DNA of 38,935 nucleotides from Brevundimonas sp. (GTDB lineage Bacteria > Pseudomonadota > Alphaproteobacteria > Caulobacterales > Caulobacteraceae): positions 1 through 38,935 of the forward strand of contig NZ_JACESB010000024.1 in NCBI RefSeq assembly GCF_013912005.1, given 5' to 3'. The notes below the pieces were generated by a model. The model searched no databases, had not been told where the DNA came from, and worked only from the letters and a program-made list of their open reading frames with translations. Positions 34,733 to 38,935 of this stretch are shown piece by piece. Position 1 is the stretch's first letter. Every line of letters starts with the position of its first letter. The translations under genes and the position numbers were made by a program.

Positions 34733-35430
34733 CGGGGTTTCTCCGGGGAGGTTCGGGTCTGGCGGATAACGTCGCGCTGGCGGGCGCGTTCCGCCTGCGC
34801 TTCCGCCCGACGCACCGCGAGCGTCAGGACCAGCACCACGGCGGCCGCCGCCCACAGCGAGAGCACGCCCCAGCGCACGAAGCTGACCGCGCCCAGGGCG
34901 CCGCCCGCGGCGAGCCCCGCCCACAGCAGGAGGAAGGGGACCCAGTCCCACCTCGGGCCGCCGCAGAGGGCGGTGGCGATCCGCTGCCCCATCCGCACCA
35001 GGGTGCCGGTCATGTAGGTCAGGCCGACGCCCACGTCCCCCTGTCGCTGGAAGACGGCGTTCTCCACCCCCATGGCCAAGACCACCGCCGCCATCCCCGC
35101 CGCCGTCCAGCCGGCGGCGCAGAGCCCGGCCGCCAGCAGCAGGAGCGCGGCCTCGACCGCCAGCACCGCCGACCGGCGGTCCTCCCCGACCCGCCGCGCC
35201 ACCAGGGCCCCGGCGACCACCCCGACCACGAACAGGCCGATCAGGCCGGCGGCGACCCCGGCCTGGTCCCATCGCCCCAGGGCGGCCCCCACCCCGAAGC
35301 GGGTCAGGTTGCCGCTCATGAAGGAGACGAAGAAGCCGCCCAGCGTCAGGAAGCCGATGGCGTCGACGAACCCCGCCAGCGCCGACAGGCTGGCCGCCAG
35401 CAGCACCCCGCGTCGTCCGTATTCCCGCAT
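34729..35430 (-). CDS. DUF1275 (YoaK-like) membrane protein
   Basis: 233 residues with six hydrophobic segments. The family start ALAGFVDAIGFLTLGGFFVSFMSGNLTR (about 17-44) is unmistakable; GVENAVFQRQGDVGVGLTYMTGTLVR is the second conserved block. Function is unknown in bacteria. It forms a two-gene unit with the glycine-zipper lipoprotein. Confidence 0.93.
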   Translation of the reverse strand: MREYGRRGVLLAASLSALAGFVDAIGFLTLGGFFVSFMSGNLTRFGVGAALGRWDQAGVAAGLIGLFVVGVVAGALVARRVGEDRRSAVLAVEAALLLLAAGLCAAGWTAAGMAAVVLAMGVENAVFQRQGDVGVGLTYMTGTLVRMGQRIATALCGGPRWDWVPFLLLWAGLAAGGALGAVSFVRWGVLSLWAAAAVVLVLTLAVRRAEAQAERARQRDVIRQTRTSPEKPR

Positions 35431-35464
35431 CCGACTCGCCCCTTGCCGCAGGAGCCTGACACGA

Positions 35465-35496
35465 CAACGGCCGGGTCGTCACCGACCCGGCCGTTG
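35465..35496 (-). terminator. 14-bp perfect hairpin downstream of ndk
   Basis: CAACGGCCGGGTCG (35465-35478) pairs fully with CGACCCGGCCGTTG (35483-35496) around a four-base loop, between the ndk stop and the DUF1275 start. There is no T-run, so it could be a strong mRNA-stabilising or Rho-assisted end rather than a classic intrinsic terminator. Confidence 0.6.
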
Positions 35497-35520
35497 CCTG
35501 AAGCGTCGATCCGACGGCGA

Positions 35521-35940
35521 TCAGCCGACGATCTGGTCTTCCGTGAAGAACTGCTCGATCTCGATCTTCGCGTTCTCGAGCGAGTCCGAGCCGTGCACCG
35601 AGTTCTCGCCGATCGACAGGGCGAACGACTTGCGGATGGTGCCTTCGGCGGCCTGTTCCGGGTTGGTCGCGCCCATCACCTCGCGGTAGCGGGCCACGGC
35701 GTTGTCGCCTTCCAGCACCTGGACGACCACCGGCTCGGCGGTCATCTGGGCCACCAGCTCGCCGTAGAACGGACGCTCGGCGTGGACGGCGTAGAACTTC
35801 TTGGCCTGCTCTTCCGACAGCTTGACGCGGCGCTGGGCCACGATGCGCAGGCCGGCGTCCTCGATCACGGCGTTGATCTTGCCGGTCAGGTTGCGACGGG
35901 TCGCGTCCGGCTTGATGATCGAGAAGGTGCGTTCGGTCAT
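35521..35940 (-). CDS. ndk: Nucleoside diphosphate kinase
   Basis: 139 residues from ATG at 35940. [18 protein letters not shown] opens the fold. [15 protein letters not shown] and the phosphorylated-His motif [11 protein letters not shown] (His at about 117) are standard. It balances NTP and dNTP pools. Preceded by its own promoter region (35941-36020), which also serves the divergent ABC-F gene. Confidence 0.97.
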
Positions 35941-36021
35941 GGGAGTGACTTCTGTTTGGGAGATTGAAGGTCGCGGGCTTATAGACGCGCCCTCCCCGCA
36001 TTCCAACAGCCCGTCATTCGC

Positions 36022-36059
36022 CCCTATCGCTCGCCGCGCGGCGGCTCGCTACCTGAGGG
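36022..36059. repeat. Palindromic interspersed repeat, copy 1 (intergenic)
   Basis: A 38-bp element, CCCTATCGCTCGC...GCTCGCT..C.TGAGGG, 34 bp upstream of the ABC-F start. The centre (GCCGCGCGGC) is self-complementary and can form a hairpin. Copy 2 lies inverted at 37730-37767 with 34 of 38 positions identical. Two of the four differences, at element positions 14 and 22, swap C/G for G/C and keep the stem paired. Confidence 0.8.
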
Positions 36060-36092
36060 GCGACCGCCGTTCTCCCCGGACTTCCCTTCCCC

Positions 36093-38012
36093 ATGCTCCA
36101 GATCACCAACCTGACCTTCAACGCCTGGGGCCGCCAGTTCCTCGACGACGCCTCGGTCAGCCTCCCCCCCGGGGCCAAGGTCGGCCTCGTCGGCCGCAAC
36201 GGCATCGGCAAGTCGACCCTGTTCAAGATCATCCTCGGCGAACTGGCGGCCAACGGCGACGAGGTCTCCCTGCCGAAGACCGCCCGCATCGGCTCGGTCG
36301 ACCAGGAGCACCCGGCCACCCCGGTCAGCGTGCTCGACACCATCCTCGAGGCCGACGTCGAGCGCCACGACCTGATGACCCGGCTGGAGACGGCCGAGCC
36401 CGAGGAGATGGGCGAGATCTGGGGCCGGCTGATTGAGATCGACGCCGACAGCGCCCCCGCCCGCGCCGCCGAAATCCTCGCCGGCCTCGGCTTCAGCCCC
36501 GAGGACATGCAGCGGCCGATGTCGCACTTCTCCGGCGGCTGGCGCATGCGCGTGGCCCTGGCGGCGGCCCTGTTCGCCCAGCCCGACATGCTGCTGCTCG
36601 ACGAGCCGACCAACTACCTCGACCTCGAGGGCGCCCTGTGGCTCGAGGCCCGGCTGAAGAAATACCCGGCCACGGCCCTGATCATCTCGCACGACCGCGA
36701 GATGCTGAACGAGGTCTGCACCCACATCCTCCACCTCGCCAACCGGAAGCTGGAGCTCTACACGGGCAACTACGACGCCTTCGAGAAGATGCGCGCCGAG
36801 AAGCTGCGCCTGCTCTCCGCCACCCGGGCCAAGCAGGACGCCGAGCGGGCCCACCTGCAGGCCTTCGTCGACCGCTTCAAGGCCAAGGCCTCCAAGGCCG
36901 CCCAGGCCCAGTCGCGGGTCAAGAAGCTGCAGAAGATGCAGACGGTCGAGCTGCCGCCCGAGGAGCGCGTCGCCCCCTTCACCCTTCCCTCGCCCGAGCG
37001 CCCCCTGCCGCCGCCGCTGATCCGGCTGGAGAAGGCCTCGGTCGGCTACGAGCCGGGCAAGCCCATCCTGCGCAATCTGAACCTGCGGATGGACCTCGAC
37101 GACCGCATCGGCCTGCTCGGCGTCAACGGCGCCGGCAAGTCGACCTTCGCCAAGCTCATCGCCAAGGCCCTGACCATCGACGCCGGCGAGTTCCACCGGG
37201 ACGGCAAGATGCGGGTCGGCTGGTTCCACCAGCACCAGATCGAGGCCATGGACCCGACCGACACCCCGCTGGAGATCATCCGCCGGGCCATGCCGGACGC
37301 CTCGGAGTCCAGCCGCCGCAGCCGGCTGGCCCAGTTCGGCCTGCCGTTCGAGAAGCAGGAGACCAAGGTCGCGGCCCTGTCGGGCGGCGAGCGCGCCCGC
37401 CTGCTGCTCAACCTGGTGGCCATGGACGCGCCGCACATCCTGATCCTCGACGAGCCGACCAACCACCTCGACATCGACAGCCGCCGCGCCCTGCTCGACG
37501 CCCTCAACGCCTACACCGGCGCCGTCATCCTGATCACCCACGACCGCTCGCTGATGGAGCTGGTCGCCGACCGCCTGTGGCTGGCCGCCGACGGCACGGT
37601 GAAGCCCTTCGACGGCGACATGGACGACTACGCCAAATTCGTCCTCGACCGCGCGAAACAGGCGGGCATGAAGCCCTCCCAGGTGAAGGCGGAGCCGGCG
37701 CCGGCGGCCACAGACGCGGCCAGTTCGGGCCCTCAAGCAGCGAGCGGCCGCGCCGCGAGCGATAGGGCCCCAAAAAAATCCGGCCCCTCCCCGTCCACCC
37801 TGCGCCACGCCGCGAGGAAGGCCGAGGAGCGCATGGCCGCCCTCGCCGCCGACCTCGCCCGGCTCGACGACGACCTCGCCAACGCCGCGGTCCACGATCC
37901 GAAGAAGCTCGAGGGCCTGACCCGCGCCCGCGCGAAGGCCCAGGCCGACCTCGACGCCGCCGAGGCCGCCTGGATGGAAGCCGAGGAAGCGCTGGCGGAG
38001 GCGACGGCCTGA
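36093..38012 (+). CDS. ABC-F ATPase (Uup/YheS-like translation factor)
   Basis: 639 residues, no membrane segments. NBD1: Walker A GRNGIGKST (35-43), signature HFSGGWRMRV, Walker B LLLDEPTNYLDLEG. An inter-domain arm with RAEKLRLLSATRAKQDAERAHLQ follows. NBD2: GVNGAGKST (about 344-352), signature LSGGERAR, Walker B LILDEPTNHLDIDS. The C-terminus (about 575-639) is a coiled coil like that of Uup and YheS. ABC-F proteins act on stalled ribosomes. Residues 546-559 in the linker are encoded by copy 2 of the palindromic repeat, and are followed by a seven-A run. ATG at 36093. Confidence 0.95.
   Translation: MLQITNLTFNAWGRQFLDDASVSLPPGAKVGLVGRNGIGKSTLFKIILGELAANGDEVSLPKTARIGSVDQEHPATPVSVLDTILEADVERHDLMTRLETAEPEEMGEIWGRLIEIDADSAPARAAEILAGLGFSPEDMQRPMSHFSGGWRMRVALAAALFAQPDMLLLDEPTNYLDLEGALWLEARLKKYPATALIISHDREMLNEVCTHILHLANRKLELYTGNYDAFEKMRAEKLRLLSATRAKQDAERAHLQAFVDRFKAKASKAAQAQSRVKKLQKMQTVELPPEERVAPFTLPSPERPLPPPLIRLEKASVGYEPGKPILRNLNLRMDLDDRIGLLGVNGAGKSTFAKLIAKALTIDAGEFHRDGKMRVGWFHQHQIEAMDPTDTPLEIIRRAMPDASESSRRSRLAQFGLPFEKQETKVAALSGGERARLLLNLVAMDAPHILILDEPTNHLDIDSRRALLDALNAYTGAVILITHDRSLMELVADRLWLAADGTVKPFDGDMDDYAKFVLDRAKQAGMKPSQVKAEPAPAATDAASSGPQAASGRAASDRAPKKSGPSPSTLRHAARKAEERMAALAADLARLDDDLANAAVHDPKKLEGLTRARAKAQADLDAAEAAWMEAEEALAEATA
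37730..37767. repeat. Palindromic interspersed repeat, copy 2 (inside ABC-F coding sequence)
   Basis: The reverse complement of this 38-bp stretch matches copy 1 (36022-36059) at 34 of 38 bases. It lies in frame and encodes an Ala/Gly/Ser/Arg-rich piece (GPQAASGRAASDRA) of the linker between NBD2 and the coiled coil, a site where extra residues should be tolerated. Confidence 0.8.
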
Positions 38013-38087
38013 CGACCGGGCGCACGACGGCGATGTTCACGTAACGGGAATCGTTGGACGCTCGACCATCGCACGTGGAGCCCGCCC

Positions 38088-38474
38088 ATGATCCGTCCCG
38101 CCGTCGTCGCCGCCGCCCTTCTCGCCGCCGCCCCGGCCTTCGCCCAGGAGCCGGGTCGCGAGCGCTACCAGCTCGAGGTTTCCGTCGTCCGGAATGGCGT
38201 CGAGATCGTCTCAACCCGCACCCAGATCGTGGAGGACGTCCCCGCCAGCGCCTCGGCGAGCATCAACGGCGTCACCTACGCCTTCGAGGCCGACCTGTTC
38301 ACGGTGCAGGGCGACGGCGGCGACGCGCAGATGATGGTCCAGGCCCATCTGTCGCGCGGGGAAGTCGAGCTGGCCGCCCCGCGCCTCACCTTCCTGCGCG
38401 GCGATCGGGCCGCCGTGCGGGTGGGGGACGACTCCGGCGACCTGCTGACGATGTCTATCACGCCCATCGACTGA
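38088..38474 (+). CDS. Small secreted protein of unknown function
   Basis: 128 residues from ATG at 38088 with GGAG upstream. A signal peptide (1-19, ending PAFA-Q) is followed by a beta-rich mature domain of about 108 residues: [40 protein letters not shown] and later short strands. No Cys, no lipobox, no motif I recognise. It lies between the ABC-F gene and mutL, with 49 bp to mutL. Homology search is needed to place it. Confidence 0.75.
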
Positions 38475-38523
38475 GCCCCGTCGCCTTCTTCCGGCGGCGG
38501 GAAAGCGGCATACTTGCGAATCC

Positions 38524-38935
38524 ATGCCCATCCGCCGCCTCCCCCCCGAGACCGTCAACCGCATCGCCGCCGGCGAGGTGGTCGAGCGGCCGGCCAGCGC
38601 CGTCAAGGAGCTGGTCGAGAACGCCCTCGACGCCGGCGCCCGCCGGGTCGAGGTCCAGGCCGACGGCGGCGGCCTGACCCGGCTGCTCATCGCCGACGAC
38701 GGCTGCGGCATGGCCCCGGACCAGCTGGCCCTGGCCATCGAGCGCCACGCCACCTCCAAGCTCGAGCCGGACGACGCCGGCGACGTCGACCTGCTGCGCA
38801 TCTCCACCCTCGGCTTCCGCGGCGAGGCCCTGCCCTCGATCGGCTCGGTCGCCCGCCTGACCATCACCTCCCGCCCCCGCGAGGGCGGCGACGCCCACAG
38901 CATCACCGTCGAGGGCGGCGCCGCCCTCGCGGGGG
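38524..38935 (+). CDS. mutL: DNA mismatch repair protein MutL, N-terminal part
   Basis: 137 residues visible; the gene continues past the right edge. GHKL ATPase motifs are complete so far: [26 protein letters not shown] (motif I, with the Mg-binding Glu and Asn), DDGCGM (motif II) and [14 protein letters not shown] (motif III, the ATP lid). MutL links MutS mismatch recognition to strand removal. Confidence 0.97.

Follow-up and report, generated by a model that had tools for sequence, protein, structure and literature searches.

Why does one short palindrome occur twice at this locus, in opposite orientations, once between two genes and once inside a reading frame? The locus belongs to a 38,935-nucleotide stretch of DNA from Brevundimonas sp., referred to here as the window. 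The initial annotation described an inverted pair of 38-nt elements at 36022-36059 and 37730-37767, and a repeat search recovered the same pair, complementary at 34 of 38 positions (89%). Differences 14 (C/G) and 22 (G/C) fall on a single pair of the upper stem, columns 15 and 23 of the later alignment, and the compensatory swap read from them was correct. A covariance model lengthens both copies from 38 to 40 nt. Copy 1 (36021..36060, plus strand) is intergenic. It is flanked by an ORF on the minus strand (35521..35940), found both in the ORF list and by the gene caller, which its sequence suggests is ndk-like, and by an ABC-F ATPase gene on the plus strand (36093..38012, 639 aa), identified by profile matches. 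Its outer stem reaches 8 bp (TCGCCCCT/AGGGGCGA). Copy 2 (37729..37768, minus strand) lies antisense within the ABC-F reading frame. The two elements are members of an interspersed hairpin-repeat family of Brevundimonas. Very probably the family is a small non-autonomous mobile DNA, consisting of a hairpin unit that would be moved in trans by an enzyme other than a Y1 transposase, and some of its copies have become protein.

It could be argued that two GC-rich palindromes resemble each other by chance. Folded singly, the copies form a closed two-stem structure on either strand, but their folding energies are just modestly better than those of shuffled sequences (z -1.3 to -3.2), as chance would allow. 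The idea is refuted by copies throughout the genome and the genus together with near-zero reversed controls, and its probability is negligible. A 301-nt DNA query around copy 1 returned copy 2 together with one more place in the source genome, matching at 25/25 nt, and a 26-letter degenerate pattern with at most 3 mismatches found 6 places compared with 1 for the reversed pattern. The covariance model (E up to 0.01) found 7 copies in the source genome. The window copies score 68.3 and 59.3 bits and the next best place in the 38.9-kb window scores 12.4; the two scores are not independent because the 70 copies used to train the model include both.

The search of related genomes that had been proposed for the covariance model showed that the family is widespread in the genus. 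When 150 candidates were scored for each of 40 sampled Brevundimonas genomes, 38 carried 7-93 copies each and 2 had no match. A 26-mer with at most 2 mismatches matched 25 of 25 Brevundimonas genomes and 0 of 16 genomes from other families of the order, and its reversed control gave 1 match across the 41 genomes. In a broader survey of Caulobacteraceae, with counts taken from the best 26 candidates scored per genome, 85 of 249 genomes were positive, 53 of them Brevundimonas; the remaining positives match more weakly and belong to genus codes g13, g23, g24 and g31, and at least 3 Brevundimonas genomes in this sample had no match. Among the matches listed, 99 of 118 named stretches are labelled Brevundimonas. 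The other 19 comprise 17 from unclassified Caulobacteraceae, Caulobacterales, Alphaproteobacteria or 'bacterium' bins and 2 from a Bordetella bin. The latter two contigs (L075 and L128) carry the family and probably reflect a binning error. One of the genomes, G015, is identical to Brevundimonas sp. ACE_PRO1 across 3704 nt, and two of the loci (L056 and L160) derive from one genome. Plasmids and phages gave no match with one 61-nt query and the low-complexity filter on. In IMG/VR, 11 contig stretches (L266-L276) hold exact copies, four of them on one 45.6-kb contig.

The unit has a well defined architecture. Its consensus, from 206 distinct contexts, reads NNNCTANCGCTC-[GCNNC]-GCG-[GNNGC]-TCGCTGCTTGAG-N'N'N'. 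These contexts came from a scan of 157 loci (2 for the reversed control) that allowed up to 5 mismatches and they contain a few false ones; the counts below use the 191 copies with at most 3 mismatches unless 206 is stated. The 40-nt hairpin has an outer stem (NNNCT/AGNNN), a conserved asymmetric internal loop (ANCGCTC / TCGCTGCTTG) and an upper stem of 5 bp closed by a GCG loop. The free upper-stem pairs 11/19 and 12/18 are paired in 202 and 200 of 206 contexts, compared with shuffle means of 101 and 110, and the outer three pairs in 182-197 of 206, compared with 127-152. In an alignment of 70 of the 119 distinct units (A1), selected for diversity, 95.8% of cells are paired in this structure. 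The covariation score is 0.427 against 0.101 for shuffled and at most 0.049 for slid versions, and G-U pairs also occur. RNAalifold, unaided, found the same outer and upper stems, the outer one pair shorter, and paired a small middle stem differently. The scans that supplied most copies fixed the upper-stem letters GC..C / G..GC and left two stem positions and the outer triplet free, so that upper stems deviating at the fixed letters are under-sampled. Units in 30 loci from g13, g24 and g23 retain the outer stem and the two halves of the loop, but their upper hairpin varies: the 26-nt forms lack it, and g24 has a longer arm. The outer stem and internal loop, which persist in these genera, therefore form the core. 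Another hairpin repeat, some 55 nt long (GCCAGGCCGCGTCGGGTCG ... GACCGCGGCCC), lies directly 3' of the unit on the same strand in 10 of its 20 distinct pattern matches (L023:1554, 2068 and 2612; L070; L087:838; L108; L117; L131; L147; L153); a few of the remaining ten resemble chance matches.

The upper stem turns over at fixed positions. Among 59 position-matched copy pairs with both flanks alike, the upper stem differs in 35, of which 31 keep full pairing in both copies. Change per site is 0.188 in the upper stem, against 0.106 elsewhere in the core. The 59 pairs are not independent and include a few poor units (L061 with itself, L270/L276 and L201/L209). Two stem alleles dominate (GCGAC in 74 copies and GCCGC in 72, together 146 of 191), and several pairs switch stems while differing at one other site at most. 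Either very fast compensation or conversion between copies would produce such turnover. An exchange of whole upper stems in place, which the copies seem to show, would speak for conversion as a frequent event. The earlier proposal that the hairpin is under selection rather than a product of chance is supported by the strong covariation and by the position-matched copies whose differing stems stay paired, although gene conversion could yield the latter.

What is the hairpin selected for? One proposal is that a chromosome or nucleoid protein binds it as double-stranded DNA, and dispersed intergenic copies with conserved loop letters would suit such a site. However, a protein reading the duplex does not need stems that vary while staying paired, and species carry anything from 0 to 93 copies, so this proposal is very unlikely. 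The copies do prefer intergenic DNA. Coding sequence makes up 85% of the loci, yet of 191 copies 163 are intergenic, 15 are in genes and 13 lie at locus edges. These numbers rely on a self-trained gene caller that was compared with the ORF list of the window only. Intergenic copies number 92 in codirectional gaps (66 kb in all), 48 in convergent gaps (19 kb) and 23 in divergent gaps (33 kb), which amounts to a preference for convergent gaps and an avoidance of divergent ones. Between codirectional genes, 56 copies lie on the coding strand and 36 on the opposite strand.

An RNA element held by selection, such as a 3'-end stabiliser, attenuator or terminator, would account for the covariation with its G-U pairs, for the enrichment in convergent gaps (16% of gap length but 48 of the 163 intergenic copies) and for the excess of 56 over 36 on the coding strand. 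It does not account for the occurrence of both orientations, the 23 copies in divergent gaps or the antisense placement of 14 of the 15 in-gene copies, and the positions of copies differ between relatives. None of the 7 Rfam matches (E up to 5) in 35000-38935 overlaps copy 1 or copy 2. A terminator was rejected, since the T-run is enriched 5' of the hairpin rather than after it, against the order of an intrinsic terminator, and no terminator-like site was found in 35400-38100. An RNA element kept in place by selection is therefore an improbable reading.

The copies that lie in genes follow a pattern. Eight of the 15 share one frame and read as the peptide (A/P)QAASxRxASDx, namely those in ABC-F (3 genomes), at the N-terminus of ThiC (3 genomes), in ThiD and in SelO, which additionally holds a partial second unit. 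The copy in LysA is read in a second frame. In five others the ORF runs into the TAG of the element and stops there. Three of the five (L096, L098 and L140) are in one gene, presumably fmt-like, whose C-terminus in each is 10 residues. The single sense-strand copy hinges on a doubtful start. The names ThiC, ThiD, LysA, SelO and ABC-F come from family-profile matches. The ThiC N-terminal copies occupy different codons in different genomes, and one of them is present in the source genome and absent in G010. The genome G010 has an extra copy in the middle of ThiC, where the source genome carries a different, GGGATGAGG-rich insert. Repeats of GGGATGAGG / CCTCATCCC form another insert of the source genome (L003 ~2685-2775, the ThiC linker in L226, and upstream of obgE in L250), which is in frame once, inside ThiC.

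The initial annotation likened the copy in ABC-F to the palindromic elements of Rickettsia (RPEs). The likeness holds insofar as the Brevundimonas repeat works like an RPE, being in frame, with one preferred frame and a recurring peptide, in unrelated genes (PMC10969869, as far as its available text goes). It is not an RPE. The unit is 48 rather than about 150 nt, the host order differs, and nearly half of RPEs lie in ORFs according to the same partial text (PMC10969869), compared with 15 of 178 classified Brevundimonas copies (163 intergenic plus 15 in-gene), most of which are intergenic; it is by the description given there that RPEs are set apart.

Copy 2 was said to be an in-frame part of an ABC-F linker, and this is so. 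Its 40 nt touch codons 546-559 (GPQAASGRAASDRA; 37728..37769, plus strand) of the 639, within the linker 525-563. The protein scores above the cut-off of NF000355 ('ribosomal protection-like ABC-F'); its best E-value is to PRK10636, yet it falls under the PRK10636 cut-off. A structure prediction with 26 orthologues, used for its confidence profile only, has a mean pLDDT of 83.6, and the sole stretch below 50 is residues 525-563, with helices predicted to restart at residue 567. Since this stretch contains residues 546-559, copy 2 lies within the part that is predicted to be unstructured. On the element strand copy 2 is preceded at 37769..37778 by seven T and then GGG-type letters, matching the T-rich leader of other copies. 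The seven T are AAAAAAA at 37772-37778 on the plus strand, and belong to Lys-Lys codons that are common to ABC-F orthologues.

A check of the orthologues for residues 546-559, which had been called for, showed that the segment is missing from 13 of 20 Brevundimonas ABC-F proteins with a readable linker and from 7 of 7 out-of-genus proteins in the alignment. Both outcomes that would have counted against the initial annotation, no further copies of the repeat and a linker segment in every orthologue, were thus looked for and did not occur. The other 7 of the 20 carry the element (G000, G010, G015 and G004, and in decayed form G024, G005 and G002). The linker of G016 is lost at a contig end, and this protein was left out of the 20. 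On an ABC-F gene tree built without the linker, with G016 entered as lacking the element, presence requires at least 5 changes, 4 of them forced by the starred branches, and dropping G016 still gives 5. When the decayed copies are omitted 3 changes suffice. Shuffled presence labels need 6.4 changes on average, and because 56 of 500 shuffles need as few as 5, the label is only weakly clustered on the tree. It is possible that the element inserted repeatedly next to the conserved Lys-Lys codons (the A-run), or that an old insertion was lost repeatedly.

The leader is not confined to copy 2. A run of at least 4 T within 14 nt before the unit is found at 25% of the 191 copies, compared with 2.3% of intergenic windows. 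Neighbouring copies no more than 300 nt apart form 30 head-to-tail, 5 converging and 0 diverging pairs. The head-to-tail spacing is 46-70 nt, most commonly 48 nt (14 of 30), and the spacers are T/G-rich and 6-15 nt long, with 8 nt in 14 of 29 pairs. They vary between arrays, and the upper stem often differs between adjacent copies. Insertion itself is seen most clearly upstream of a gene that we take, from its sequence, to be obgE-like. At this site G010 has a copy and the source genome has none, and the difference is 48 nt including the leader, with 0-1 nt of possible target duplication at this one site. The target-site duplication expected of a MITE is thus not seen there. Because this length equals the commonest array spacing, 48 nt is taken as the mobile unit, on the strength of one clean site. 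The clean site could also be a precise deletion in the source genome. Of five G010 copies compared with the source genome, this one is clean and the other 4 are not, owing to replacement, decay or divergence; 10 further empty-site alignments across the loci include none that is clean and several that are suggestive. Since no mover was found, mobility rests on the distribution of the family and on this site.

Three further observations speak against a mobile DNA family. Individual copies have leaders of different sequence, which is not what a normal transposon end looks like, the array spacing varies over 46-70 nt, and some Brevundimonas genomes gave no match. On the reverse strand a typical copy is a stable hairpin with some 8 A/C-rich bases after it, and these bases differ between copies. 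They resemble an untemplated tail, and the clean site shows that the stretch came with the insertion. It is conceivable that no DNA transposase was involved and that the family spread as a bacterial retroposon similar to a SINE, through hairpin RNAs that were captured with their short A-rich tail, although we give this only a slim chance.

If the family is mobile DNA, what moves it? The obvious candidates are the RAYT (TnpA-REP) transposases, which accompany GTAG REPs, short imperfect palindromes described in the available portions of Di Nocera 2013 (PMC3733652) and PMC8266576. The Y1 domain of these transposases (PF01797) is absent from the source genome; a search of 61 Brevundimonas genomes found it in 1, and a search of 21 additional genomes in 2, both of genus code g23. 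The 21 comprise 18 of other genera and 3 Brevundimonas, two of which are shared with the set of 61, and 18 of the 21 carry the family or weaker relatives by the covariance survey. The same search matched 5 of 14 control genomes, Caulobacter vibrioides included. The Y1 match among the 61 is at contig 64 34518-34838 of G018 (L039). No family copy lies within 2044 bases around it, and none was found in the six loci around Y1 matches. RAYT was rejected as the general mover on these grounds. A recurring neighbour gene was also considered as the mover, and the 45 largest protein clusters near copies look like ordinary conserved genes, with no transposase by eye.

Could the family nevertheless be a true REP, moved on a tagged hairpin by a RAYT that has diverged, was recently lost or is supplied elsewhere? 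The size, the intergenic and convergent preference, the unpaired interruptions of the hairpin and the clusters all agree with this. On its reverse strand the consensus has GCAG within the outer stem, at a distance of 3 nt to the upper hairpin; some families allow a degenerate GYAG tag, with which these letters agree, and copy 1 reads GTAG. However, PF01797 is scarce although the copies look fresh, the loci around Y1 matches lack copies, the tag is enclosed by the outer stem instead of terminal, and the upper hairpin is lacking in the 26-nt relatives. A RAYT-moved REP is accordingly an unlikely explanation with a small but real chance, and judging from the letters GCAG a distant tie to GTAG REPs may be left open.

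The comparison with described REPs runs in both directions. Like GTAG REPs, the Brevundimonas repeat is a short imperfect palindrome present in tens of copies, intergenic with a convergent bias, with complementary stem variation, occasional copies in ORFs and stop codons given to flanking ORFs. Unlike them, it occurs with a Y1 transposase in just 1 of 61 genomes, it has a T-rich leader and a closing outer stem that covaries, and its upper hairpin is optional in relatives. GTAG REP dimers are head-head or tail-tail and rarely head-tail, at least in the part of the literature available, whereas the Brevundimonas pairs are mainly head-to-tail. The CGTC-tagged REPs are mostly alphaproteobacterial, with RPE-4 and RPE-6 among them, and have a CGTC-type tag, an 8-9 bp stem, a 4-5 nt loop and a CCA-like tail, as the accessible text states (PMC3733652). 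The Brevundimonas repeat shares with them the alphaproteobacterial host, the missing transposase association and the ability to be intragenic; however, its 206-copy consensus has no CGTC, TGTC or CCTC tag, no CCA tail and no single 8-9 bp stem. The CGTC families form mostly head-head dimers, with rare groups, in the same portion of text (PMC3733652), unlike the head-to-tail Brevundimonas arrays. REPs inside ORFs, REPs that donate stop codons and CGTC REPs without a transposase association are already described there (PMC3733652), so that the corresponding properties of the Brevundimonas family are not new. What distinguishes the family from REPs is its T-rich leader, an outer stem that closes the unit and covaries, the head-to-tail order of its arrays and the lack of a RAYT. 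In its behaviour it resembles REPs and RPEs, yet features that define each of them, such as the RAYT association of the former and the length near 150 nt of the latter, were looked for and are missing.

A last relative was sought closer to the host. GANTC, the CcrM site, occurs at 21 of 191 copies (11%) compared with 17.7% of random windows. GANTC is thus not enriched at copies, and a link by way of this site to the CcrM-associated intergenic repeats (CIRs) of Caulobacter was rejected. The CIRs resemble the family in being repeats of the same bacterial family, but they are strictly intergenic by the description in the available text (PMC10969869), which sets them apart, and the Brevundimonas repeat is not. 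The initial annotation knew of no account of the element in Caulobacterales; titles and abstract beginnings of the papers listed likewise show none for Brevundimonas or Caulobacteraceae, and where two Brevundimonas papers speak of 'palindromic repeats', CRISPR is meant.

We return to the preferred reading, a mobile hairpin family moved in trans. Its unit would be the 40-nt hairpin, commonly after a T/G-rich leader of about 8 nt, 48 nt in total. The folded single strand is probably recognised by a trans-acting enzyme other than a Y1/RAYT transposase. Insertion would occur without target-site duplication, often beside an existing copy and in the same orientation, and most surviving insertions would be intergenic. 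When the element lands antisense in a gene, its stop-free frame would be read as a short polar peptide, QAASxRxASDx. Such a peptide may be tolerated in linkers and N-termini, and residues 546-559 of the ABC-F protein are suggested to have arisen from copy 2 by this route.

The family adds a large repeat without a recognised mover to a bacterial family that contains model bacteria. It would offer a clean system for how REP-like elements spread without RAYT, and the same question applies to the CGTC repeats. The in-frame copies in ABC-F and ThiC suggest that a short hairpin DNA has repeatedly been turned into protein linkers, and the differences in copies from species to species make both insertion and its effect directly testable.
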